This document shows, one piece after another, positions 3,120 through 36,965 of a stretch of DNA of 38,855 bases; position 1 is the stretch's first letter; every line of letters starts with the position of its first letter. A program made the translations under genes and the position numbers. The stretch is taken from positions 1 to 38,855 of the IMG/VR virus record IMGVR_UViG_3300048839_000368; one strand, written 5' to 3'. The notes under the pieces were generated by a model. The model made no database searches and was not told the origin of the DNA. It saw only the letters and a list, made by a program, of their open reading frames with translations. Source of the DNA: a virus.

Positions 3120-3758
3120 ATGTTTACTATCGCCAAATGGGATCATACAAAGGAGGAGGGAATATATAAAGTCTCTGCTCCTGTTCGTCGTTTTAGTGAG
3201 ATAAAAGATACTGTCTTTGATATGGTTAAGTGGCTCAATGATAACAACGGTAAGTTTGAGGAGCCTTATACGACAGCATACGCAGTCTCTCATTGCCAAG
3301 TAGAGGCAAACCCTTATCATTTCTTTATTGTTAGTAAAGATTTAGTCGGAGATAAGAAAAAGAAAGAGGGACGTAATACTTCTAAAAACTATTTCTTTCC
3401 GTCTCAGATTATCGTAAATGCTGAGGTTATAGATACACCCGAAAAGATTACAGTTAATAAGCCTATGCGTAGGATAGTGAGAGGTAAAGACGGCAAGGTA
3501 ACTCCTAAGATAGAGATTAAAGAGACTGTGGAGAGGAACGGTATATTTGTCCCAGAGGCTTGTATGAGCTTTAGGAATAGAACTAAAAAGAATATGGAGC
3601 GATTTTATCGCGTTACTGTGCGTTATCAGATACCTAAAAAGATATTGGGTGTTTGGTATTTATCAACTAAGACAGAAGTCGTAGAGGGATTAAAGTCTCA
3701 TATCTTTCAACACGAGACAGATCACGCTAAGGCTAAGAATATGTATTATGGGAAATAA
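3120..3758 (+). CDS. def: Peptide deformylase homologue
   Basis: A 212-residue metalloenzyme that would remove formyl groups from nascent N-termini. All three deformylase motifs are recognisable in divergent form: motif 1 around SHCQVEANP (Gln60), motif 2 VPEACMSF (metal-ligand Cys148, normally EGCLS), and motif 3 QHETDH (His198, Glu199, His202, normally HExxDH). An extra lysine-rich loop (about 78-90) and a longer middle account for its length over phage deformylases of about 130-190 residues. It ends 11 bases inside the 2H phosphoesterase gene. A deformylase between the two terminase subunits is an unusual location. Known phage deformylases act on host or photosystem proteins; the target here is unknown. 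Confidence 0.8.
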   Translation: MFTIAKWDHTKEEGIYKVSAPVRRFSEIKDTVFDMVKWLNDNNGKFEEPYTTAYAVSHCQVEANPYHFFIVSKDLVGDKKKKEGRNTSKNYFFPSQIIVNAEVIDTPEKITVNKPMRRIVRGKDGKVTPKIEIKETVERNGIFVPEACMSFRNRTKKNMERFYRVTVRYQIPKKILGVWYLSTKTEVVEGLKSHIFQHETDHAKAKNMYYGK

Positions 3759-4350
3759 AAAAGAAGTAAAAGCTCACGACTATAAAGAGATATACGAAAT
3801 GTTAGGATATAACCTATCTAATTTAGGTTGTTTAATGTTAGATACTGAGCCTATAAATATATCTTATGCTTTAGGAATGGACGACGGCACAGGTATTATC
3901 TCTCCAAGTTTCCCCGCTTACTATGCTAAAAATAAAGAGAGATTTTGGATAGACGGATATGTGGCTGATAAGACACCACACTTAACTTTATTCTATGGCT
4001 TTCTACAAGAGGCAGGCTGTTTTAAAACTCATATTGAGAAATTATTAAAAGATACAAATATCTCTACAGTTAAAATAAGCGAGGTAAGTTTCTTTGATAG
4101 TCCATATGAGGACGAGCCTTATTATTGCATTGTGGCTAAGATAGAAAAGACAGACGATTTAATTGAGGCTCATAATAAAATGACTCTCTTGCCTAACATA
4201 CAAACATTTCCAGATTATAAACCTCATATCACTATCGCTTATATCGTTAAAGACGAAACGATAAGAGATAACTTTATTGAATATCTTAAAAAAGAGTTAC
4301 TAGGCAAAGAGCTAAAAGTTATAGGCTTAAATTACGGAGGTAATAAATAA
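3748..4350 (+). CDS. 2H phosphoesterase (LigT / 2'-5' ligase-like fold)
   Basis: A 200-residue protein with two HxT motifs, PHLTLFYG (His78, Thr80) and PHITIAYI (His160, Thr162). The spacing and hydrophobic context are those of the 2H phosphoesterase superfamily, which opens 2',3'-cyclic phosphates or cleaves 2'-5' and 3'-5' bonds. An N-terminal extension of about 65 residues is unusual. Phage members include anti-CBASS protein Acb1, which degrades cyclic oligonucleotide signals, and RNA-repair enzymes. Overlap with the deformylase gene suggests one operon. Anti-defence is a plausible but untested role. Confidence 0.75.
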   Translation: MGNKKEVKAHDYKEIYEMLGYNLSNLGCLMLDTEPINISYALGMDDGTGIISPSFPAYYAKNKERFWIDGYVADKTPHLTLFYGFLQEAGCFKTHIEKLLKDTNISTVKISEVSFFDSPYEDEPYYCIVAKIEKTDDLIEAHNKMTLLPNIQTFPDYKPHITIAYIVKDETIRDNFIEYLKKELLGKELKVIGLNYGGNK

Positions 4351-4354
4351 ACAT

Positions 4355-4762
4355 ATGAAAATAGAAACCAGAGTATTTAACAAAAGAACAAAAACAATGC
4401 ACTACTTTAAGCCATTACAGGCTAGAGGAGACGCTGTCTTTGGTTTACCTGTAGACGATAGAGCATACCCAGAATTAGACGCTACGGATCCGGTAATGTT
4501 AAAAACCTCAATGCAGGATATAAATAAGGAATGGTTATACGAGGGAGACTTCGTAGAGTGTGGAATACAGACGTCATACGGCTTAATTAAGGATAGCGGA
4601 GTCGTTGTATGGCGTGCTGATATAGGAAGTTTTACAATAAACATTAAGACACCATACGAAAATCAAACACAGTTTCAAGTAGTAGACGTTATTAAAAAGG
4701 GGAATATCTACGAGAACCCCGAATTATTAAAAAATGACAAAGAAACCGATACAAAAGAATAA
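4355..4762 (+). CDS. YopX-like protein
   Basis: A 135-residue protein with the layout of the phage YopX family: an N-terminal strand (ETRVFNKRTKTMHYF), a central KEWLYEGDFVE turn (the family's EIYEGDIV), a beta-rich middle, and a C-terminal GNIYENPELL nearly identical to the family's ending. YopX proteins are common in Firmicutes phages and have no known activity. The end overlaps the terminase gene by 29 bases. Confidence 0.8.
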   Translation: MKIETRVFNKRTKTMHYFKPLQARGDAVFGLPVDDRAYPELDATDPVMLKTSMQDINKEWLYEGDFVECGIQTSYGLIKDSGVVVWRADIGSFTINIKTPYENQTQFQVVDVIKKGNIYENPELLKNDKETDTKE

Positions 4763-6245
4763 AGACATAGAGGGATATACACCCCGAGAAATACTCCTAG
4801 AACAAGCTAGGAGGCTCTCAGAGGAGCAATATCGCTATTATGAGCCGTCTGGTAAGGGCGAGGACTTTATAGACGCTTTCGCGAGCGGAGAGAACTTTAT
4901 CGTCTTATACTCGGCTGCTAACGGAGTCGGAAAGACTGCGACTTGCTCTAACATACTAGCTCACTTATTCTGGAATACCGGAGAGAATGAATACTTTAAC
5001 GGAGAACTATTTAAAAACTTTCCATTTAAGAAACGCGGGCGTATTGTTTCTACTCCTACAAACGTAGAAAAGAACATTATCCCAGAAATGAAAACGTGGT
5101 TCCCTCGTGGTAGATATAAAACAAATAAAGGAAATAAGAAGTTTGAGAGTATCTGGACTACTGATACAGGGTGGGAGTTTGACATAATGACATACGAGCA
5201 GGACGCTATGGAGTTTGAGGGAGTAACGCTCGGTTGGGCTTGGTTTGACGAACCACCTCCACAAGCTATCTTAAAGGCTACTATTTCACGTATGAGAACA
5301 GGTGGAATAATTATTATAGGTGCTACTCCTCTCGGAGGTAGTGCTTATCTTTACGACGCTTTTGCTAAAGGAACTGTAGAGATAGAGCTTACCAGTCAAG
5401 AAAACGGAGCTACAATGAAATATGAGCGTAAGGTGGGATATGTAGAGGCTGATATTGAGTCCGCCTGTAAAGAACACGGAGTTAGAGGACACTTAAAACA
5501 CGATCATATTATGCAAATGGTAGCGGAGTATTCTGAGGACGAAAAACAAGCTCGTATTTATGGTAAGTTCCAACACTTAGCCGGCTTAGTCTTTAAACAG
5601 TTTACACCGAGAATACACGTCATAGAGCCGTTTGATATAAACCCTAAAGACTTTTGTGTATATGAGTTCTTGGATCCACACCCTAGAAACCCAGACGCTA
5701 TAATGTGGGTAGCTGTAGACAAGAATAATACTAAATATGTTGTAGACGAATTATTTATCAAAGTAAATAGTGAGTCAGACTTGGCTAGTAGGATTAAGAA
5801 TAAAGCTAGTCAGTATAGAATAATAAGGCGTATGGCTGACCCGTCATTGTGGGTTAATAATCAGCACAATGAGGACGGTAAGTGTCTAGGAGATAAGCTA
5901 GCAGAGTTAGGATTAACATATTTACCGGCTACAAAAGCTCGTGCAATGGCTGATAGACGTATTGAAAGTGCTTTGAAATATGTAGAGATAAACGGATATA
6001 TGCAGAAAGCCCCAGAGCTTTATATCTTTTCAAACTGTAAGAGGACTATCTTTGAAATGGAGCATTATCGTTGGCAGGAATACACCGGAAAGAGTGCAGA
6101 CTTACACGACCCTAATCCTAAACCCGTGGATAAGGACGACCACCAAATAGAAAATCTAGGTAGATGTCTATACAACGAACCGCGTTTCGTCCCTGTAACA
6201 AAGTTTACTCCGTCGTCAGCTCCTAATTTAGACCCCTATGCCTAA
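4734..6245 (+). CDS. terL: Terminase large subunit (ATPase and nuclease)
   Basis: A 503-residue packaging motor. The ATPase domain has Walker A AANGVGKT (61-68), Walker B WAWFDEPP with Asp172 and Glu173, and a coupling motif IIIIGATPLGG. The C-terminal RNase H-like nuclease shows acidic residues in FLDPHPRNP (Asp314), MADPSLW (Asp369) and KDDHQIENLGR (Asp468/Asp469). Length and motif order are complete. It translocates DNA into the prohead through the portal (8428) and cuts the concatemer. The stop overlaps the start of the next HNH gene by 8 bases, a usual place for a free-standing homing endonuclease. Confidence 0.95.
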   Translation: MTKKPIQKNKDIEGYTPREILLEQARRLSEEQYRYYEPSGKGEDFIDAFASGENFIVLYSAANGVGKTATCSNILAHLFWNTGENEYFNGELFKNFPFKKRGRIVSTPTNVEKNIIPEMKTWFPRGRYKTNKGNKKFESIWTTDTGWEFDIMTYEQDAMEFEGVTLGWAWFDEPPPQAILKATISRMRTGGIIIIGATPLGGSAYLYDAFAKGTVEIELTSQENGATMKYERKVGYVEADIESACKEHGVRGHLKHDHIMQMVAEYSEDEKQARIYGKFQHLAGLVFKQFTPRIHVIEPFDINPKDFCVYEFLDPHPRNPDAIMWVAVDKNNTKYVVDELFIKVNSESDLASRIKNKASQYRIIRRMADPSLWVNNQHNEDGKCLGDKLAELGLTYLPATKARAMADRRIESALKYVEINGYMQKAPELYIFSNCKRTIFEMEHYRWQEYTGKSADLHDPNPKPVDKDDHQIENLGRCLYNEPRFVPVTKFTPSSAPNLDPYA

Positions 6246-22836: not shown

Positions 22837-25800
22837 ATGTCAATAAATAATTACTTCAATATACCAAATACAGAGGACGAAAAGAAAAAAAAGTCTGGTG
22901 CTGTTTCTAGTGGTAATGTAAGCAACTATTTTAAGGTTCCAGAAAAAGTAAAAGAGGAACCTATCGTTACTCAAAAACAAGAAAAAACTGTGCCGGTAAA
23001 TACAGAAGTAATAAACATAGACAATACACAGAAAAAGACTGAGGCAAAGATACCTAAACAAGAGGTTATCTCACAAGGTAAAGAGGATACACGAAAAGAG
23101 GACACAATATGGAGCCGTCTCGGACGTGTTGTTTTACCTAACTTTTTAGAGAAAGAACTAGGTATAGACGAAACTCAGAGACAAACAACTCTTACTAAGG
23201 CTGAGACTGTTAAAATGCAAGGTATGGAGACTACAAAATACTTAGCTGAGAAAAATCCAGAGAGTATAGCTCCTACCGAGTATTTGAGACGTGGGCTTTC
23301 TTTTGGTAATGAATTGGATCCAACTGACTACTTACGAGGATACAAGTCTGACGTTAGCGTAGAGGACTTACCAGAGCCTACAACTCCACAGCAAAAGATA
23401 GCTGAGGCAGTAGGTAGTTTAATTACTATGTCTATAGCACAGCCTCTTATTGAGGGTGCTTTCGTTAAGGCAGTAAGTTACTTTCCAAAAGGTGCAAAGG
23501 TATTAGAGACACTATCCACAGCAAGCAAAGCTAATCCGTGGACTGTAGGATATGGATTAAATGTAGCCAAAGCCGGAGCAGAGGGCGGGTTATTTGGACT
23601 TATTACAGAGAACAGAAAGAGTGTTGCTGAGAATGTTTTAGAGACAGCCGGAACTTTCGCCGCTTTTACGGCGTTAGCTTTTCCAATACAGCAATTTTTT
23701 AAGCCGATTATCCAGTCAGTCGGTAAAATGAAAATAGAAAATCCAAGAATAAAAAATATATTAAATGATCCTGCTATAACAAAACCTACAGTCTCAAAAA
23801 CAGTCTGGTTTAAAAATCCAAATGACGAAACTCAGTTATTGAAAGTTACCGGTAATGGTATGGAGTTCGTAACAAAGAGCGGAGAAATGGTAGAGAAAGG
23901 AGTATATGTAAAAGATATACCTACTCTTACGAGTGTGGATATTGAGGCGTTTAAAGTTAAACCAAGTGTATATGAAAATCTTAAAAAATGGGTAGGCGGT
24001 AAGATAAAAAACACTAAAGTAGATTTTAAAGTTAAAGATACAGTTCCAGAAAGTAAGTTAAAAACTGACTCTATAGACACAAACAAGGCTATACAAGAAA
24101 TATCTAACCTAAAGCCCGCAGAAGTTAGAGACGCTATGGTTAAGACTGAAAAAGAGTTAGATTTATTAAGGAGTGGATTATCTACGGGGGTTAAAGAGAG
24201 CGATATTATTTATAAGGCAAATACCCTTAGAGACTCTTTTAATGACTACAACGAACAAAATAAAGAAATTATATTGAATGTTAAGGGAGACAATAGCGTT
24301 CCTTTGGCTAGTATAGAAGTCGTAGAATATAACGACGGTAAGTTTATGGTAAGGACTGACGTTAATATATCTACTTCTGGTTTTGGAACTCCTTTTACTG
24401 GTAGTTATAAGTCTCGCGAGGAGGCTATAAATGCCGGTAAAAAATCTATAGAAACTTGGATAAATAAAGAAAGCAACCTATCAGCTACAGACAAAAAAGA
24501 AATTGAAAAAATAAAGAAAGAAATAAATAGTCTTTCTCCAAAGGAAGTTACAGAGGAAATACAGCCTATAGAAAAAGAAGTATCTATAGAGGATAAAAAA
24601 TATGATAATGTTGAGGATTTTATAAAATCTCAGACACCTATATATCATTACACAAATGCTAAGTTTAATAAGTTTGATTTATCAAAAACAGAGGCTCAGT
24701 CAGTTTGGTTTACAGATAATGCTAACATAGATTTAAAAACAGGAGACGGATTAGGCTCGTCCCAAGTTGGTAGTGGTGGAGCAAAATATAAAGTAGATAG
24801 ATACATAAACCCAAATGCTAAAATAATTGATATTGAGAAATCAGATTTAACAGATAAATATACCTCCGGACAACTTATTGATATGGGTTATGCAGGTATT
24901 AAAGTCCCTCAACTAGACGGTAGTAATTGGTATGAGATATGGGAACCAAATAAAGACCTATTAACAAAATCACAATTAAAAAGTGAATGGGAAAAAATAA
25001 AGACCGAAAAATCAAAAAGGATAGGCGTTGCTGACTATAATCCTGCTTATACTGAAAATATGATAAAACTTATAAAAGAGGCACAGGACAATGGAGACCT
25101 ATTTCCTTTTTCAAAGTTTTCAAAAGAGGAACAGAATATTTTTGATAATGCTTGGAGGGATAGAATGAGTAAGGCTACAAAGACCCAAAAAGATATAGTT
25201 AAGGAGGCTGTTAAAGGAGAACCTAAAACAATAAAACAAATAGCAGAGGAAACTAAAATACTAGAGCCTAACGTAAGGCGTATTTTGGGAGTAGGAGCTA
25301 AGGACGGAACCTTTGAAAGACTAGACGCCGGAGTATATGTTTTAAAGAAAGACGGTAAAGAATTAGCTTATGTTGAGGCTAATGACGCTGTAGACGCTCT
25401 AGCTAGAATGGTAACAGAGAATAAGAAGTTTGACTCAGTTATTCTGGATCCGGCTTATTTCTCACGTGCTTTAATTGGAGGAAATAGAGGTATAAAAGAG
25501 TGGGGATTTATTATGCCTCCAGAGTTTGATAAGGTAATGACTTCTATTTCTAAACTCGTAACTAACGATAAAACACAAGTATATTTAATGTTATCCGGTG
25601 CAAGGACAGCTCAGCCAGATATGGAGAAGTATGTTAAGAGTGCTACAGACGCAGGATTTAAAGTAGTTGGAGAGGGAACATACAAAAAACTTACGAAAGA
25701 TTTAAAACCTGTTACAAACGTTAGAGGAGTTGAGGCGTCAGCCGAGAGACTTATTTTAATGAGTTTGTCTGGAGAAGTTAGAAAAGGAGAGATACCTGTA

Positions 25801-28800
25801 GAAATGGATTTTAGATTTATAAGACCAAGTATTGCAAAATCATATCAGACAGAGAAACCCGCAGAGCTTATGAAAGCCTTAATAGAACAGTCTACCTTAG
25901 AGGGCGAAAGCGTCCTTGATCCTTTTGCCGGTTCTGGAGTTACTGGAGCTGAGGCAATTAAGAGCGGACGCGTTCCTACTCTTGTGGAGAAAAAGCCGGA
26001 AGTTGTAGAGAAAGTAATTAAGCCTAGATTATTGGAGGCTACAAAACAGAAAAATGAAGTTAAGAGATATGAAAATATCCTAAAACAACAGATAGGAGAT
26101 ACTTTTGAAGTAGTTAAACCAATAGGCGATTTATGGAATAGTAAAAATAATACATTGTTTATATCTCCTAAAAAAGAAAGAATAGGATACTTAAACTGGC
26201 TCAGAGAAAGAAACTTTATAGAGAGTGCTGAGGAGGCAGGTAATAATATATTTAAAGTTAATGTAAAACCAAACTTACAAGAACAGACTCCTAGTAGTAA
26301 GACAGAAGTTATAACGAAAGCAAAAGAGGCACAAGATATTTATACAAAAGACCAAATAAGTGAATTAAATAATAACTCTTACTATGACGTTAATTGGAAT
26401 GAAGATTATAAAAATACCATTGCGTCTATAAAAAATAAGGTTAATTTAGATAAAATACCAGACGATTTTATAGAAACTTGGAATACATTTTTAGATAAAT
26501 ATACAGAACTTTACAAAAAAGATTTAAGGATAATAGCTGAAAATCCGTCTCCTAGTGTAACTGGTAGAGCAGGATATAACTTTGCTAAGAGAGATAAGTC
26601 TGTAGCTAGAAATAGAGCCTTAATGGATCAAAAAGAGGAGCTAGTAAATAAATTAGATAAAGACTTTAGGAGTTATAAGTTCCAAGCAGAAAGAAGTAGA
26701 AAGTCTGGAATGTCAGAAGTTGATTTATTAAAAGAAAAATTAGTAAAAGCTCAAAAAGACGCAGAGTGGGCTAAAGGCAGAGGAGAGGATTATTGGATAG
26801 AGTTCACTACTAAAAAGGTAAAGTCTCTTGAAAGAAAAATATCTAAATTAGAAAATGGAGAACAAGTATCAAATATAATAAAAAAAGAAACTAGGAATGA
26901 AAGATATGCTAGAGAAATGAGAGAGGAAAAAGGAGGAGCTTTAGGTTTTAACCCTAAAAATCTAGACGAAATATCCGGAGAAAAGGCAACCAAAGAAGTA
27001 GATAAAATAATAAAAAGAAGTGAGATAGCTAAACGTCTTAGTGATAAGTTTGCCGTGCCTATAAGGCAAGGTAAGTTTAGACACGCAGGAGCTATCGGAC
27101 TATTTAAACCAAATCAGAAAGTTATCAGAATTAAAAAAGGAGGAATGGGGACACTATTCCACGAACTCGGACACTTCTTAGACGGAGAGTTTGAGTTATC
27201 GGGCTTAATTCCAAGAAGTGAGAGAGTGCCTTTAATGAGTAATTACGGGTATTCTTACGCAGGGCAACCAGAGAAACAAAGGAAAGAGGCTTTTGCTGAG
27301 TTCTTGCGTTATAAAATGATAGGAGACAATAAGAGTATTGAAAAATATGCTCCTAAGTTTGCCGAGATTTTTGAAAAGAAAATGAGCGAACTCCCAGAAG
27401 TTAAAGACGTTCTAGACGTAGCATTTAGCGATTATCAGAAATGGCTAGAGCAACCCGCAGTCGCTAAAATATTAAGTCATATCTCACTAGACAATAAAAA
27501 TACTGCTAGCTTAAAAGATAGGTTCACAAATAACCTACATAATCTATACACTATGGGCGTAGACGAATTACACCCATTGTCTGAGTTCACAAAAATAGCC
27601 ACAGAAAATCTAGGAAAAATCCCAGAAAAAAATAATCCTTATATCCTTGCTAGAAACCTTAGAGGGTGGGTAGGTAAGGCTAATACTTTCTTAGAGAAAG
27701 GGACTTTTGGTAAAAACTATTGGACTGAAAAAGACGGAAAAATTGTTGCTAACTTTAAAGGTAAGAGCTTTAATGAAATATTAAAGCCTATTTCTGACGC
27801 CGGTAAGTTAGACGATTTTAGAGTATACCTTGTTTCAAAGAGAGCCAAAGAGCTAGCAGGTAGAAAAATAACTACCGGAATAAAAGAGGAGGACGCAGAT
27901 ATAGCCCTTGCAGAACTAGAAAAAAATAATCCTACATTTAAAGAAAAGGCAAAAGAAATATATAACTATCAAGACCAACTTCTAGAATATGCTAAAGAGA
28001 ATGGACTTATAGGAGAGGAGGGATTTAAAAAGATAAAAGAATTAAACGCTTTCCGCGTTCCATTTTATAGAGTTATGGAAACTGAGAGAAGTAATTTTAT
28101 GGGAGGCAAGAAAGTAGCCGGAAATATTAAGGCTCCTATCCGTAAAATTAAAGGTTCCGAAAGAGAAATTATAGACCCTATTGAGAGTATTATAAAAGAT
28201 ACTTACGCGATCATTAACTCCGCCGAGAGGAATAATGTCGGACTTGCTATAGCAAAATTAGCCGATAAGAACTTTGAGCTAGGGAGACTATTTGAGGAAG
28301 TGGCTAAGCCAATGAAACCCGTAACTGTAAACGTTAAGGAAGTTTTAGAGAGTGCTTTCCCAGACGTTGCAGATTTAATACCGGCTGACGCGGGAGAAAA
28401 AACTGTAACTCTATTTAGACCAATGCAAGATATGGGAGATAATATGCTAACTATTAACTTCGGAGATAGCTCAAAAGTATACCAAGTAGACCCAGATTTA
28501 TTTAAGGCTTTGCAAGGAATAAATGCCGAGGATATGTCTATGATTTTAAAGATAATTTCTTACCCTGCTAAACTCCTAAGAGCCGGTGCTACCTTGTCTC
28601 CGGACTTCGTTGTTCGTAACCCAATGAGAGACCAATTCTCAGCTTTCGTATTCTCAAAATACGGTTATAAGCCTTTCTGGGATATGGCTCGTGGAATGTT
28701 TGAAACATTTAAGAAAGGAGACGTTTACGATTTATGGAGAATGTCCGGAGGAGAAAGTTCAATGCTTGTATCCGGAGACCGTGATAGTTTGAAACAAACA

Positions 28801-30039
28801 CTCAAAGAATTGCTAGCCTCAAAAGGAGCTAAGGGATTAAACTACGTAAAACACCCTGTAGAATTATTGAGAGCTTTGTCTGAGTTTGGAGAAAAGGCTA
28901 CAAGACTAGGAGAAATGAGACGGGCTTTAAAGGCTCACGCTGACCCTGTAGCGGGTGCTTTCGCTAGTCGTGAGGTAACTCTAGACTTTGCTAGAATAGG
29001 AGCCAAGACAAAGGCTGTAAACTCAATAATAGCTTTCTGGAACGCTAACATACAAGATATGGATAAGATAAGGAGAGAGTTTAAAGAAAAACCTACAAAA
29101 ATGTTATTGCGTTTATTCCTATCTATTACCCTACCGTCTATCCTACTTTATCTAGCAAACAGAGACGATAAGAGGTGGAAAGAAATACCACAATGGCAAA
29201 AAAATACTTTCTGGATAGTCTTTACTGATAAACATATTTACAGAATACCTAAACCTTTCTTACTCGGGACTTTGTTCGGTTCTGTTCCAGAGAGAGCTTT
29301 AGAGTATATGGATACAAAGGATCCAGAACTATTTAAAGATATGGCTAATACTGTAGCTGACGGGGTTACACCGTCTTATATTCCTACAGGGCTATTACCA
29401 GTAATTGAAAACCAAGCTAACTATTCTTTCTTTAAAGATAGACCCATAGTTTCAAGAGGTAAAGAAAACCTACCTCCTAAATATCAGACAAGCACGTATA
29501 CAAGTGAAGTCGCTAAAATTGTAGGCGAGGCTCTTAATTATTCTCCGGACAAAGTAGATAACTTACTATACGGATATACAGGAGGACTAGGTAGATACGG
29601 GACAAATATAATAGACTTTGTTCTAAAAACTTCTGGAGTTAGAGACGCTACTATTATGCCTACAAAAACAATAGAGGAAATGCCGGTTATAAAATCATTT
29701 ATGATTAAAGAACCATACGGAAGTAGCTCAGAGAGTGTAAATAAAGTTTATAATTTCTACAGCAAATCTCAGTCAAAATATAATTATTTCCAAAAATTGA
29801 GTCAAGGAGAGGCAACCTCAGACAAGCTCACAGAATACTTAAAAGAAAATCCAGAAGTAGCAAAATATACCTTTATTAACGGCGTTGTTTCCGAGTTTAG
29901 TGCGATAAATAAAGCTAAAAATGTAATATACCAGTCAAACAATATGCTCTCTACAACCAAGAAAAAGAAAATATTAGAGTTGGAAAAATTACAAACCAAG
30001 ATAGCGAATGACGCTCTAAACATATTAAAAAATGACTAA
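22837..30039 (+). CDS. Giant polyvalent virion protein: ADP-ribosyltransferase-like, methyltransferase, zincin and LPD38-like regions
   Basis: A 2400-residue protein. Residues 1-90 are disordered, with two NYFxxP repeats. Residues about 600-730 (IYHYTNAKFNKFDLS, then SVWFTDN) resemble an ADP-ribosyltransferase fold. A winged-helix-like segment follows. Residues about 850-1060 are a DNA methyltransferase with motif IV DPAY (871-874) before motif I DPFAGSG (1028-1034), a circularly permuted N4/N6-type order. Residues about 1415-1500 are a zincin with HELGH (1442-1446) and Glu in EAFAEF (1484-1489). Residues about 1640-2400 look like the large polyvalent protein domain LPD38, with one hydrophobic helix near 2089 (LFLSITLPSILLYLA). 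Polyvalent proteins are packaged and injected to alter host targets and protect entering DNA. It follows the tail genes and ends overlapping the first lysis-side gene. Confidence 0.8.
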   Translation: MSINNYFNIPNTEDEKKKKSGAVSSGNVSNYFKVPEKVKEEPIVTQKQEKTVPVNTEVINIDNTQKKTEAKIPKQEVISQGKEDTRKEDTIWSRLGRVVLPNFLEKELGIDETQRQTTLTKAETVKMQGMETTKYLAEKNPESIAPTEYLRRGLSFGNELDPTDYLRGYKSDVSVEDLPEPTTPQQKIAEAVGSLITMSIAQPLIEGAFVKAVSYFPKGAKVLETLSTASKANPWTVGYGLNVAKAGAEGGLFGLITENRKSVAENVLETAGTFAAFTALAFPIQQFFKPIIQSVGKMKIENPRIKNILNDPAITKPTVSKTVWFKNPNDETQLLKVTGNGMEFVTKSGEMVEKGVYVKDIPTLTSVDIEAFKVKPSVYENLKKWVGGKIKNTKVDFKVKDTVPESKLKTDSIDTNKAIQEISNLKPAEVRDAMVKTEKELDLLRSGLSTGVKESDIIYKANTLRDSFNDYNEQNKEIILNVKGDNSVPLASIEVVEYNDGKFMVRTDVNISTSGFGTPFTGSYKSREEAINAGKKSIETWINKESNLSATDKKEIEKIKKEINSLSPKEVTEEIQPIEKEVSIEDKKYDNVEDFIKSQTPIYHYTNAKFNKFDLSKTEAQSVWFTDNANIDLKTGDGLGSSQVGSGGAKYKVDRYINPNAKIIDIEKSDLTDKYTSGQLIDMGYAGIKVPQLDGSNWYEIWEPNKDLLTKSQLKSEWEKIKTEKSKRIGVADYNPAYTENMIKLIKEAQDNGDLFPFSKFSKEEQNIFDNAWRDRMSKATKTQKDIVKEAVKGEPKTIKQIAEETKILEPNVRRILGVGAKDGTFERLDAGVYVLKKDGKELAYVEANDAVDALARMVTENKKFDSVILDPAYFSRALIGGNRGIKEWGFIMPPEFDKVMTSISKLVTNDKTQVYLMLSGARTAQPDMEKYVKSATDAGFKVVGEGTYKKLTKDLKPVTNVRGVEASAERLILMSLSGEVRKGEIPVEMDFRFIRPSIAKSYQTEKPAELMKALIEQSTLEGESVLDPFAGSGVTGAEAIKSGRVPTLVEKKPEVVEKVIKPRLLEATKQKNEVKRYENILKQQIGDTFEVVKPIGDLWNSKNNTLFISPKKERIGYLNWLRERNFIESAEEAGNNIFKVNVKPNLQEQTPSSKTEVITKAKEAQDIYTKDQISELNNNSYYDVNWNEDYKNTIASIKNKVNLDKIPDDFIETWNTFLDKYTELYKKDLRIIAENPSPSVTGRAGYNFAKRDKSVARNRALMDQKEELVNKLDKDFRSYKFQAERSRKSGMSEVDLLKEKLVKAQKDAEWAKGRGEDYWIEFTTKKVKSLERKISKLENGEQVSNIIKKETRNERYAREMREEKGGALGFNPKNLDEISGEKATKEVDKIIKRSEIAKRLSDKFAVPIRQGKFRHAGAIGLFKPNQKVIRIKKGGMGTLFHELGHFLDGEFELSGLIPRSERVPLMSNYGYSYAGQPEKQRKEAFAEFLRYKMIGDNKSIEKYAPKFAEIFEKKMSELPEVKDVLDVAFSDYQKWLEQPAVAKILSHISLDNKNTASLKDRFTNNLHNLYTMGVDELHPLSEFTKIATENLGKIPEKNNPYILARNLRGWVGKANTFLEKGTFGKNYWTEKDGKIVANFKGKSFNEILKPISDAGKLDDFRVYLVSKRAKELAGRKITTGIKEEDADIALAELEKNNPTFKEKAKEIYNYQDQLLEYAKENGLIGEEGFKKIKELNAFRVPFYRVMETERSNFMGGKKVAGNIKAPIRKIKGSEREIIDPIESIIKDTYAIINSAERNNVGLAIAKLADKNFELGRLFEEVAKPMKPVTVNVKEVLESAFPDVADLIPADAGEKTVTLFRPMQDMGDNMLTINFGDSSKVYQVDPDLFKALQGINAEDMSMILKIISYPAKLLRAGATLSPDFVVRNPMRDQFSAFVFSKYGYKPFWDMARGMFETFKKGDVYDLWRMSGGESSMLVSGDRDSLKQTLKELLASKGAKGLNYVKHPVELLRALSEFGEKATRLGEMRRALKAHADPVAGAFASREVTLDFARIGAKTKAVNSIIAFWNANIQDMDKIRREFKEKPTKMLLRLFLSITLPSILLYLANRDDKRWKEIPQWQKNTFWIVFTDKHIYRIPKPFLLGTLFGSVPERALEYMDTKDPELFKDMANTVADGVTPSYIPTGLLPVIENQANYSFFKDRPIVSRGKENLPPKYQTSTYTSEVAKIVGEALNYSPDKVDNLLYGYTGGLGRYGTNIIDFVLKTSGVRDATIMPTKTIEEMPVIKSFMIKEPYGSSSESVNKVYNFYSKSQSKYNYFQKLSQGEATSDKLTEYLKENPEVAKYTFINGVVSEFSAINKAKNVIYQSNNMLSTTKKKKILELEKLQTKIANDALNILKND

Positions 30040-33033: not shown

Positions 33034-33918
33034 ATGAGTAATAAAGACAATACAATTACGAAGTTTGAGAATGACAAGTCTCTAGCAACTTATATAAATG
33101 ATAAATATATAACTCAGATTAAGAACTTTTTTAATGACGAAAGCAAAGCATTAAAGTTTTTAAGTTCTGTTAGAGCAGACGTTCAAAGAAACTCAAAATT
33201 GCTAGACTGCACTCCAGAGTCTTTAGTAAATGCCTATATAGAAATGGCTCAGTTTGGTTTTATGCCCTCAAATATCTCAGGCGAGACTTACGTTTTGCCT
33301 TACAATATAAAAGGGGTTATGCTAGCTCAGTTACAAATAGGCTATCAAGGTTTTATAACCTTACTATATCAAGCCGGAGTCCAAAAGATTACGTCTGAAA
33401 TAGTAAGAAAAAATGACAAGTTTTCTTATATCAATGGGGAAATGAGACACGAGATAGATTTAACTTTATCTAACAAAGAAAGAGGCGAGGCTGTCGGAGC
33501 CTACGTTAAAGTTTTATTTAGAAACGAGGAGAGTATTAGGTATATGAACGCAAAGGATATTTTGGCTCACGCTCAAAAGTTCTCAAAATCATATAACCCT
33601 ACTGGGGCATTTTCTCCGTGGAACCCTGCTAATGATCCAGAGTTAAATATGTGGAGAAAGACTGTGTTAAAACAAATGCAGAAGTTCCTACCTAAGAACG
33701 AGATTATCTACAAGGCTATAGAATTGGATAATAGAGATAGTATCATAGCTGACAGGTTAGAGGTCGCTAGCCAAGAAAGCCAAGGTTTAAAAATGGGTAA
33801 TTTATTAACTACAAATGAAAAAAACAACGCCAAAAAAGAGAGTGTCGGTAAAGAGGAAAATAAAGACGAAGTTCCTAGTTCCGAAAGTAATGAGGTCAAT
33901 CCTTTCGCAAAAGGATAA
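33034..33918 (+). CDS. recT: RecT-family single-strand annealing protein
   Basis: A 294-residue recombinase that anneals complementary single strands and invades replication forks. The RecT core is visible: SVRADVQRNSKLLDCTPESL, EMAQFGFMPS, MLAQLQIGYQGFITLLYQAG, then NAKDILAHAQKFSKSYNPTG, and NMWRKTVLKQMQKFLPKN. The last 40 residues are low-complexity and acidic, and they overlap the start of the nuclease-motor gene. Genes next to recT usually encode the partner exonuclease, as here. Confidence 0.92.
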   Translation: MSNKDNTITKFENDKSLATYINDKYITQIKNFFNDESKALKFLSSVRADVQRNSKLLDCTPESLVNAYIEMAQFGFMPSNISGETYVLPYNIKGVMLAQLQIGYQGFITLLYQAGVQKITSEIVRKNDKFSYINGEMRHEIDLTLSNKERGEAVGAYVKVLFRNEESIRYMNAKDILAHAQKFSKSYNPTGAFSPWNPANDPELNMWRKTVLKQMQKFLPKNEIIYKAIELDNRDSIIADRLEVASQESQGLKMGNLLTTNEKNNAKKESVGKEENKDEVPSSESNEVNPFAKG

Positions 33919-35890
33919 TAAAGACGAGTTTCCTGTCCCTCATATCTCTTACAGTTTTATGAGGTCGCTATCTACAAACCCTATTCTTTGTAAAATCAAA
34001 TACTTAAATAGAGATACGATAGATACAGCCTCAAACATATCCGGAGTATTGGGTAACGCGTTCCATAATGCTATGAATGTGTATTACGGAGGCTCAGACG
34101 TATTGGTTCCTATCAATGAGGCTGAGGCTATAGAATACGGTTTAAAAGCCGGTATGGAGTTCCTAGAGAATTATAACGACGGTCTGATTAACTTCTCTAA
34201 AACAATAGAGACTAAACAGAAAGCCCTAGAATTATTTAGTTTTTGTTATACGGAATATATTAAAAAAAATCCATATAATAAAGAAATGGTTATATCCACA
34301 GAGGATAAAATAGTAGAGAAAGTAAATGTAGAGTGGAGAGGTAAAACTCTCAATATGCCTATTAAATTAAAGGGATATATTGACTTAATAGAGAGAGACG
34401 AAAAAGGTAGACTCGTAATTACAGACTATAAAACTTGTTATAATTTCTCGGATCCAGACAAAATAGACGGAGCTAAAATACTCCAAGCAGTAGAAAACTT
34501 TTTATTAGTCTATGCGAAGTATGGAGAGGAACCTTACTCAATAAAATATAAAGAGGTTAAGTATACTAAAAATGCAGTTTGTAAGGATCCAGAATGTAAA
34601 AGGTGGCACGACTCAGAGCATAAACACTCACAAGTTGAACCTTACGAGCTTGTATTTAAAGATAACGATTTATACTTTGATTTTTACTTTAGATTTTATG
34701 AGGATACTATCAGAGCCTTAAACGGAGAAATGGTATACCTGCCAAACGTGGACGCGATATTTGATAACGAGGTTGCTATCGTGGCTTATATCCACAGACT
34801 AGATATGTCTGAGGAGACAGCTAAGTTAATGAAAAAGCACAAGGTAGAAAATATCACAGACTTATTAAAAAAAGAGATACAAAGTGCAAATAGTATGAAA
34901 AACCTCTTAAAGTCGGTAGAGGAAAAGTTTGTATCAGCTAAAAATATAAATTACGAAAAAATGTCTATGGAGGAAAAAATACAGACAAAAATGTTAGAGT
35001 TCGGAATAATGTTACAGTTTGACTCTAAAATAGAGGGAGCAACGGTAGACTTATACCGATATACCCCGTCTATTGGCGTTAAAATGAGTCGCTTGCGCAA
35101 TTTCGTAGACGATATAGAGCAAATTACCGGAGTGAGTGGTATACGCGTTCTAGCCCCTATTAGAGGCACAAAGCTAGTAGGTTTTGAGATACCTAAAGAA
35201 AATAGATTATTCCCTAGTTTACCTACCGAAAAGAATGATTTTAATTTTGCTGTTGGTATAACTATAGGAGGAGAAATAAGGAGGTATGATTTTAGAACAG
35301 CCCCTCATACTCTCGTAGCCGGTTCTAGTGGTTCTGGTAAGTCAGTTTTCTTGCACGCAGTTGTAAAACAAGCAATAAATTGTCCTAAAATTGATTTACA
35401 CTTGTTTGATCCTAAGCAAGTAGAGTTTCTACAATATGACGAAATGGTTAAAGAATACAAACATAGTCCAGACGGAATAAAAGACGGACTAGATAACCTA
35501 GTTATAGAAATGGAAAAACGCTACGATAAAATGAAAAAGTTAAAAGTTAGAGACGTATCTAAAACAGATTTTAATTATAAGTTTGTAGTCATAGACGAAT
35601 ACGCGGACTTAAAATTAAGGTCAGATATTGATAGAAATATCAAACTATTAGCTCAGAAAGGTAGAGCCTGTGGAATACACCTTATACTTGCTACTCAGAG
35701 AGCTAGCACGAAAGTTATTGACGGAGATATTAAAAATAACTTTACTACAAAGGTCGTATTTAGAATGTCTAAGGCTATTGATAGCCGAGTAATGATAGAC
35801 GAGGACGGAGCAGAAAGGTTACTCGGAAAAGGAGACTGTTTATTCTGCGGAGACTGGGGAATAGATAGACTTCAAACTTTCAATGTGTAA
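33890..35890 (+). CDS. RecB/Cas4-type nuclease fused to an FtsK-type DNA motor
   Basis: A 666-residue two-part protein. Residues 10-300 are a PD-(D/E)XK exonuclease of RecB type: ISYSFMRSL with a cysteine 11 residues later, GVLGNAFHNAMN (the His motif), KGYIDLI (Asp165) and ITDYKT (Asp179, Lys181). CKDPEC and nearby histidines may bind a metal or an Fe-S cluster. Residues about 380-440 match the FtsK beta domain (GVKMSRLRN, then IRVLAPIRGTKLVGFEIP). The motor has Walker A GSSGSGKS (478-485), Walker B FVVIDEYADL (Asp569), and RACGIHLILATQRAS. The gamma DNA-reading domain is absent. The start at 33890 overlaps recT by 29 bases; an upstream in-frame ATG at 33815 would add 25 basic residues. It is probably the end-resection engine that feeds RecT. 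Confidence 0.85.
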   Translation: MRSILSQKDNKDEFPVPHISYSFMRSLSTNPILCKIKYLNRDTIDTASNISGVLGNAFHNAMNVYYGGSDVLVPINEAEAIEYGLKAGMEFLENYNDGLINFSKTIETKQKALELFSFCYTEYIKKNPYNKEMVISTEDKIVEKVNVEWRGKTLNMPIKLKGYIDLIERDEKGRLVITDYKTCYNFSDPDKIDGAKILQAVENFLLVYAKYGEEPYSIKYKEVKYTKNAVCKDPECKRWHDSEHKHSQVEPYELVFKDNDLYFDFYFRFYEDTIRALNGEMVYLPNVDAIFDNEVAIVAYIHRLDMSEETAKLMKKHKVENITDLLKKEIQSANSMKNLLKSVEEKFVSAKNINYEKMSMEEKIQTKMLEFGIMLQFDSKIEGATVDLYRYTPSIGVKMSRLRNFVDDIEQITGVSGIRVLAPIRGTKLVGFEIPKENRLFPSLPTEKNDFNFAVGITIGGEIRRYDFRTAPHTLVAGSSGSGKSVFLHAVVKQAINCPKIDLHLFDPKQVEFLQYDEMVKEYKHSPDGIKDGLDNLVIEMEKRYDKMKKLKVRDVSKTDFNYKFVVIDEYADLKLRSDIDRNIKLLAQKGRACGIHLILATQRASTKVIDGDIKNNFTTKVVFRMSKAIDSRVMIDEDGAERLLGKGDCLFCGDWGIDRLQTFNV

Positions 35891-35893
35891 ATT

Positions 35894-36211
35894 ATGCTTT
35901 ATAAAAAGAAAAATATACCATTAAAAATCAAAAGTTATATTGCTGTGAGGGATAATGGTATTTGTCAGATATGCGGTAAAATTGGAGAATTAAAACCTAC
36001 ATATTTTGGTTATATGGCTTTTGAAAAGATACCGGCTTGGTATTGCCACGACAAAGGAGCAGTTAGTGGTATTTATCCAAACCTTATGTCTTTTGAGATA
36101 GATCATATACACCCAGAAAGTGCAGGAGGAACACTTGATTTAGAAAATCTACGCTTAGCCTGTAGAAGTTGTAATAGGTCTAAAGGTTGTAAAATAACAA
36201 ATAAAAAATAA
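35894..36211 (+). CDS. HNH endonuclease (McrA-like, zinc type)
   Basis: A 105-residue protein: CQICGK, then SFEIDHIHPESAGGTLD, then NLRLACRSCNRSKGCK. Both CxxC pairs, DH and the Asn-containing helix of an HNH nuclease are present. There is no extra DNA-binding domain. It lies 3 bases after the nuclease-motor gene. It may be a phage nuclease for recombination or packaging, or a selfish insertion. Confidence 0.85.
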   Translation: MLYKKKNIPLKIKSYIAVRDNGICQICGKIGELKPTYFGYMAFEKIPAWYCHDKGAVSGIYPNLMSFEIDHIHPESAGGTLDLENLRLACRSCNRSKGCKITNKK

Positions 36212-36215
36212 TTAT

Positions 36216-36965
36216 ATGGCTACACAAAGACGAATGATTTACGCCCAAATGGCAGAAAATAAAAGTTATGCCAGTATGAGCGATAAGGCACAAAAAACAT
36301 ATGTATTTCTTATAGTGTTAGCTGACGACGAGGGGAGACTAAAGGGAGATACAGACTGGTTAAGAATAAAAATATTTCCTTATAATCCAGAAATTACTAG
36401 AGACGATATGAGAGGATTTATAAAGGAAATTACGAAAGCTGGTTTGATAACTTGGTATAAGTCAGAGGACGGAAATTACTATATTTCACACCCTAATTGG
36501 GAGAAATATCAGAAACTTAGAGCTGATAGAATGAAAGAAAGTGATATACCGCAACCAAATGACAACCAAGTGTCAACCAAACGGGTGCGTAAGTTAAGTA
36601 AAGATAAGATAAGAGAAGTTAATCTAATAAACTCTATCTCCTATCTTAAAAAAATACCGGAAAAAGATTTAGAGGAGTTTTATAATCGGTTTGACTGTTC
36701 TAAGAAAGCGATCATATCAAAGGCTGAGGATTTAGTTCTCTGGTGCGATACAAACGGGAGAGAAAAGAAAAACTATAAAACATTTTTATTAAATGCTTTA
36801 AAAAAGGATTTTCAAGAAAGAAAGGAACCAGTAAGAAAGCCTATCGTAGTAAAACCCGATATAGTTCCAGTTCCATTATCTCCAGAGGAACGTAAACCTA
36901 TTCCAGAGGATATAAAAAACTCAATTAACGCAATTATTGGTAATAAAACTATAAAAAATGACTAA
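36216..36965 (+). CDS. Replication initiation-like protein (N-terminal winged helix)
   Basis: A 249-residue protein. Residues 10-100 (SDKAQKTYVFLIVLADDEGR, then DTDWLRIKIFPY, then EITKAGLITWYKSEDGNYYI) have the helix-turn-helix and wing pattern of phage replisome organiser and initiator proteins, ending in HPNWEKYQKLRADR. The C-terminal half is charged and helical, as in DnaD-like helicase loaders. No polymerase or helicase is present nearby, so it may recruit host proteins to the origin. Confidence 0.65.
   Translation: MATQRRMIYAQMAENKSYASMSDKAQKTYVFLIVLADDEGRLKGDTDWLRIKIFPYNPEITRDDMRGFIKEITKAGLITWYKSEDGNYYISHPNWEKYQKLRADRMKESDIPQPNDNQVSTKRVRKLSKDKIREVNLINSISYLKKIPEKDLEEFYNRFDCSKKAIISKAEDLVLWCDTNGREKKNYKTFLLNALKKDFQERKEPVRKPIVVKPDIVPVPLSPEERKPIPEDIKNSINAIIGNKTIKND

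Follow-up and report, generated by a model that had tools for sequence, protein, structure and literature searches.

Introduction

Phage exonuclease-annealase pairs underlie recombineering, and to our knowledge the exonucleases of these pairs all work without ATP. The partner of RecT in E. coli is RecE. The typical neighbours of recT in Firmicutes phages encode YqaJ or DUF3799 nucleases (PMC8093625), and contact between annealase and exonuclease has a precedent in Redbeta, whose C-terminal domain docks on lambda Exo (PMC7496540). For nucleases coupled to a ring motor, the closest biochemical precedent is HerA-NurA of Thermococcus kodakarensis, which degrades both DNA strands without producing an overhang (PMC12977600).

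We analyzed a 38,855-base virus record from IMG/VR (hereafter the window) in which one gene joins a RecB-family nuclease to an FtsK motor next to recT. A preliminary description of this DNA noted no described phage protein with such a fusion, and this was borne out within the databases and literature searched, where the fusion appeared undescribed; Iyer 2002 and Iyer 2004, classic surveys covering annealases and FtsK-HerA ATPases, may contain an early mention. The individual parts are already known; within the sources searched, what appears new is their fusion and its pairing with an annealase.

Results

The open frame at 33890-35890 (plus strand) runs without a stop through 666 codons and translates to 666 aa; residue numbers for the fusion protein follow this translation. 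A tblastn search of 50,697 GenBank phage records found no sequence covering both halves: the whole protein returned motor matches only and its first half returned seven weak nuclease matches. Motor matches in human-faecal "phages" were rejected as fusions and attributed to bacterial FtsK contamination; five GenBank faecal "Bacteriophage sp." entries (L002, L003, L004, L005 and L006) have a normal bacterial ftsK in the company of other bacterial genes and are apparently contaminated with host DNA. Single-protein scans of IMG/VR gave nothing, their patterns falling on unconserved stretches, and an alignment of FtsK motors was used as a guide, which yielded 26 relatives whose matches spanned most of the protein or, on truncated contigs, part of it. 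Further IMG/VR members came from scans with the nuclease half, as did five in metagenome-assembled genomes (one duplicating a viral record), and a RecT-alignment scan that returned 80 loci supplied about a dozen more. After removal of duplicates the family comprised 54 distinct fused sequences, nearly all from IMG/VR. They form two groups, one (the main clade) about 40-70% identical to the protein of the window and the other (clade B) about 30%. The preliminary description had proposed looking for the same fusion in other phages and had considered a stop or frameshift between the two halves. The 54 sequences, mostly from IMG/VR viruses, provide the former and rule out the latter, and they exclude chance, frameshift or misassembly as the source of the fusion. 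When the loci of the motor- and nuclease-half scans were examined by profile searches, every nuclease-half match was fused to a motor except in L108, whose fusion gene (L108:7956-9960) carries two in-frame TGA codons. Across this locus TGA aligns mostly with Trp in relatives (Trp in 113 aligned pairs), so this virus most likely reads TGA as Trp, and a broken or split fusion was rejected in favor of such recoding.

The frame was open as first described, but its start is probably not at 33890. We prefer the ATG at 33815, which would extend the gene to 33815-35890 (plus strand, 691 aa) and its overlap with recT to 104 nt, because the additional N-terminal extension (33815-33889) is conserved, including where there is no overlap with recT. 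This basic extension contains VPKV (family consensus LPKV), and its hydrophobic-Pro-x-hydrophobic (Pro-Lys) peptide is kept in main-clade fusion homologs; the same extension is present in L105 and L101, two loci where the fusion gene and recT do not overlap. It was not found in clade B.

The N-terminal half of the protein (residues 14-300; 33929-34789, plus strand) is a RecB-family PD-(D/E)XK nuclease domain. Pfam PDDEXK_1 (PF12705) matches residues 45-184 above cut-off (E 4.9e-8), and the PHROGs match for this half is the exonuclease family phrog_1218. His59, Glu138, Asp165, Asp179 and Lys181 are invariant in a 41-row nuclease alignment, as are Ser20, Ser22, Gly55, Pro285 and Asn286, while Gln199, Glu222 and Lys224 are nearly so; the RecB-family signature of His, Glu, Asp and Asp-x-Lys with a following Gln is present on a PD-(D/E)XK fold. 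Modeled alone with AlphaFold2 (pLDDT 88, pTM 0.84), the domain aligned by VIA-align with AdnA (Z 15.2, rmsd 3.9, 220 residues), a putative Eubacterium rectale exonuclease (Z 15.2, rmsd 6.0, 208 residues), E. coli RecE (Z 15.0, rmsd 5.0, 210 residues) and AddB (Z 14.3, rmsd 6.1, 270 residues), with Dna2 and MGME1 also among the matches. Foldseek ranked the Argonaute-associated Cas4-family protein ACE1, AdnA and AddB highest. No conserved Cys column corresponding to the 4Fe-4S cysteines of the Cas4/AddB subgroup was present in the family alignment: Cys34 is replaced by Phe in 24 of 25 members, and Cys231 and Cys236 occur only in the protein of the window. These last two lie in a zinc-finger-like insertion, CKDPECKRWHDSEHKH (34580-34627, residues 231-246), seen only in this member, and iron-sulphur or zinc binding by them was accordingly rejected as a family trait.

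The C-terminal half (residues 351-666; 34940-35887, plus strand) is an FtsK motor comprising the alpha domain and the RecA-like beta domain with Walker A and B that characterize FtsK/SpoIIIE. FtsK_alpha (PF17854) matches residues 351-435 (E 4.7e-13) and FtsK_SpoIIIE (PF01580) residues 446-559 (whole-protein E 2.4e-24), both above cut-off, and the PHROGs match is the FtsK/SpoIIIE-like phrog_1358. Lys484 of the Walker A sequence GSGKS and Asp569-Glu570 of Walker B are invariant in all 27 motors aligned. The motor superimposes on the DNA-bound FtsK motor (6t8o_F) with Z 36.5 and rmsd 1.8 over 309 residues at 36% identity. DndH and HerA structures were also among the matches, the HerA entries scoring Z about 21 or less, and the best PADLOC matches were SspH translocases. 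A sequence search of solved structures agreed. Neither the gamma (winged-helix) domain of FtsK nor its membrane anchor is present, as the nuclease occupies the N-terminus and the chain stops at the last strand of the beta domain. The two halves are joined by a helical linker of low confidence (34790-34939, plus strand; pLDDT <50 at residues 334-352), and because of this linker and the pTM of 0.49 the full-length AlphaFold2 model (pLDDT 83) does not predict how the domains are placed relative to each other.

These results largely uphold the initial domain assignment. The catalytic set first proposed (His59 of GNAFH, Asp165 and Asp179-x-Lys181) proved invariant in the nuclease alignments, to which Glu138 can be added, and the suggested structure prediction placed a PD-(D/E)XK fold at the N-terminus, with Z of about 14-15 to RecE, AdnA and AddB. 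The full FtsK alpha/beta motor with its Walker motifs was likewise confirmed by Pfam, by residue invariance and by a Z of about 36. The label "RecB/Cas4-type" holds for RecB, but Cas4 is too specific, as the absence of conserved iron-sulphur cysteines places the nuclease outside that subgroup.

The gene immediately upstream is recT (33034-33918, plus strand), which ends inside the fusion frame as had been noticed and encodes a RecT-family single-strand annealing protein of 294 aa (PF03837, E 1.1e-33; phrog_148, E 1e-46; TIGR00616 above cut-off). Searching by the fusion gave 41 distinct loci with upstream DNA, and each of them has an annealase gene upstream on the same strand, encoding RecT in 35 and a Bet-like protein in six. 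The two genes adjoin directly, apart from a few clade B loci in which one to several small predicted genes intervene. All ten annealases scanned match PF03837 above cut-off, and PHROGs tells RecT-like proteins (phrog_148) from Bet-like ones (phrog_252, phrog_2449 and phrog_2780). In a FastTree phylogeny of the fusion, rooted at its midpoint, the Bet-like partners are spread over about five branches (L054 with L031, L113, L112, L118 and L106), which suggests that RecT was replaced about five times. Recurrent exchange of one annealase for another next to a given enzyme would be expected of a working pair. Downstream of the fusion lie an HNH endonuclease gene (35894-36211, plus strand; PF01844, E 1.7e-15), directly adjoining but mostly not conserved in that position according to the neighbor clusters of the fusion loci, and a gene for a phage replication initiation protein (36216-36965, plus strand; phrog_1408, E 1.3e-13). 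A phage SSB (PF00436) was detected in none of 30 fusion and control records. Elsewhere, the window carries a predicted RNA ligase gene (phrog_755; 3748-4347) just upstream of the terminase region, preceded by a gene with a weak peptide deformylase match, and, after the structural genes, a single open frame of 2400 aa (22837-30039) that is apparently multidomain.

Among the RecT proteins most similar to that of the window, all but two are followed by the fusion. In these two loci (L140 and L144), whose RecT is about 50% identical, the next protein is a YqaJ exonuclease (PF09588, E 1.8e-17 and 3.6e-19). Searching entire records, which may themselves be fragments, we detected YqaJ in none of 28 with the fusion and in both of those without it; the control genomes of E. 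coli and B. subtilis gave matches. Since YqaJ fills the slot in relatives devoid of the fusion and is absent from fusion records, the fusion appears, from gene content, to stand in for the usual motor-less exonuclease. The pairing with RecT originally proposed is thus strengthened by the annealase present in 41 of 41 loci, by its Bet-like replacements and by the mutual exclusion with YqaJ.

The tail of RecT carries the peptide LKMGNL (33787-33804, plus strand), a candidate docking peptide for the fusion protein. Of 32 annealase tails in the main clade, 31 contain the corresponding pattern [LIM]x[ML]G, typically LKMGNL, among them those of all four Bet-like proteins of this clade; a further main-clade member found through its RecT (L136) has a degenerate LKMSSL. 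A slightly stricter pattern was found in none of 41 RecT loci lacking the fusion, and clade B annealases do not carry the motif. In L105, where recT does not overlap the fusion gene, 237 nt separate the motif from the start of the fusion, and across loci the Gly of the motif is encoded by each of the four Gly codons. These two observations indicate that selection probably acts on the peptide rather than on the DNA, and they disfavor a ribosome-binding or other DNA-level cause. The LKMGNL tail is therefore a possible docking peptide in the main clade. Its co-occurrence with the N-terminal extension of the fusion protein depends on one evolutionary split, the main clade having both and clade B neither, and docking through this motif would not be general because clade B lacks it. 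The frequent overlap of the recT tail with the fusion gene makes it plausible that the annealase swaps replaced only the core and kept the tail.

Three of the five matches in genome bins were in Patescibacteria bins, on contigs of 6-39 kb that are possibly binned viruses. In a sample of 380 Patescibacteria genomes, besides the genome on which the search was centered, the nuclease half was matched by three stand-alone nucleases of about 275-300 aa (E 1e-51 to 1e-63; the aligned part of one contains an internal TAG) and by one longer helicase-like protein (E 2e-17). These three nucleases (L207:1504-2331, L208:1456-2343 and L209:1492-2391) are the closest cellular relatives found of the nuclease half, and neither a motor nor RecT was seen beside them in the stretch examined. 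Within 296 genomes of the phylum to which a Bacteroidia bin belongs, the bin itself gave the only nuclease-half match. Patescibacteria are possible hosts of some fusion phages. The hosts are not uniform, since L108 implies one that reads TGA as Trp.

Discussion

We propose, with a probability of roughly two in three, that the fusion protein is the exonuclease partner in a phage two-component recombinase, in which a RecB-family nuclease is carried on its own FtsK duplex translocase. As in such recombinases, a gene for a RecT/Redbeta-type annealase is conserved nearby and its partner is a PD-(D/E)XK protein with an intact active site. Both folds and their active sites, the fusion, the gene pairing, the exchange with YqaJ and the tail motif, all seen in sequence, model or context, support this reading. 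By analogy with FtsK, the motor would form a hexameric ring at the end of broken or linear viral DNA, where it would pump the duplex by ATP-driven translocation; the nuclease domains, on the N-terminal side of the ring, would degrade DNA during its passage, with a polarity and a single-stranded output extrapolated from RecE and lambda Exo. The surviving strand would be passed to RecT or Bet and annealed to a homologous strand, so that ATP-driven resection would feed the annealase. In the main clade the annealase would probably dock through its LKMGNL tail peptide, a contact for which lambda Exo and Redbeta offer the precedent. Several considerations count against this proposal, the choice of strand being the main difficulty. 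FtsK moves duplex DNA without separating its strands and RecB-family nucleases mostly act on single strands; a strand-separating element would be needed, and none was recognised. The 3' single-stranded product of 5'-3' resection that is expected of a two-component recombinase cannot be assumed, because HerA-NurA, a motor-nuclease with a comparable layout, leaves no overhang. The full-length model does not predict the arrangement of the two domains, and in clade B the tail motif is missing and, in some viruses, small genes come between recT and the fusion.

This precedent also lends itself to an unlikely alternative, that the fusion serves degradation as HerA-NurA or DndFGH/SspH do: the motor would feed DNA into the nuclease and both strands of the host chromosome or of competing phage DNA would be destroyed, while the annealase repairs phage DNA independently of the fusion's product. 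The motor does belong to the FtsK-HerA superfamily, with SspH translocases as its best PADLOC matches and DndH and HerA among its structural matches, and HerA-NurA indeed degrades both strands. However, the motor resembles FtsK (Z about 36) more than it does HerA (Z about 21), and its constant pairing with two annealase subfamilies, together with the exclusion of YqaJ, points to a shared role in recombination. Slightly less probable still is a function after annealing, in which the FtsK part would push along recombination intermediates or strip proteins from them and the nuclease would trim flaps left by annealing, resection being left to host enzymes. Stripping and remodeling of DNA complexes are established activities of FtsK motors, and Dna2 and MGME1, which match the nuclease model, both cut single-stranded flaps; yet the gene fills the slot of YqaJ, a resecting exonuclease, and the fusion viruses tested encode no YqaJ-family exonuclease. 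A motor for genome packaging or genome-end processing is very improbable because, although FtsK-HerA ATPases package DNA in some membrane-containing viruses and PHROGs gave a weak terminase match on the motor (phrog_2666), the window encodes its own large terminase (4734-6245), portal and major head protein, and the fusion sits beside the annealase, away from the head genes.

If the fusion is indeed the exonuclease of a two-component recombinase, the supply of an annealase by a ring-shaped duplex pump would be a new way of engineering end resection. It would test whether single strands for annealing can come from a motor that does not unwind DNA, and it could provide a more processive tool for double-strand recombineering. 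The repeated change from RecT to Bet-like partners and the candidate docking peptide make the choice of partner directly testable. A broader picture, to which we give somewhat less than even odds, would be that of a widespread, hitherto undescribed single-gene resection engine driven by FtsK in uncultured tailed phages, some of which may infect Patescibacteria, with RecT or Bet recruited by a shared tail peptide.

Compared with known systems, the motor is 34-36% identical to the alpha/beta motors of FtsK/SpoIIIE and of FtsK-like phage translocases, such as those of Omega-like mycobacteriophages. FtsK and SpoIIIE have membrane and gamma domains, whereas the fusion protein lacks both and its nuclease precedes the motor; the mycobacteriophage FtsK-like protein has no nuclease and is encoded near a Ku gene. 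In mycobacteriophage Bobby (L007:2791-5296), this vicinity of a translocase gene to one for a Ku-like DNA-end-binding protein may represent another end-processing pair. RecBCD, AddAB and AdnAB resemble the fusion in combining a RecB-family nuclease with an ATP motor at DNA ends, an activity that the fusion would share, but they are multi-subunit enzymes in which SF1 helicases unwind DNA; the motor here is not an SF1 helicase but an FtsK duplex translocase. With HerA-NurA and HerA-DUF4297 the likeness resides in a ring motor of the FtsK-HerA superfamily coupled to a nuclease, provided that the fusion forms the expected hexamer. Those systems consist of two proteins, a HerA-type motor and a NurA or DUF4297 nuclease, whereas the fusion, having no separate NurA-fold subunit with a HerA-type motor, unites an FtsK-type motor and a RecB-type nuclease in one chain with an annealase as partner. 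Finally, lambda Exo-Redbeta, RecE-RecT and YqaJ-RecT share with the present locus an annealase gene adjoining that of a PD-(D/E)XK exonuclease; lambda Exo, RecE and YqaJ carry no motor, whereas the exonuclease described here is fused to an FtsK translocase.
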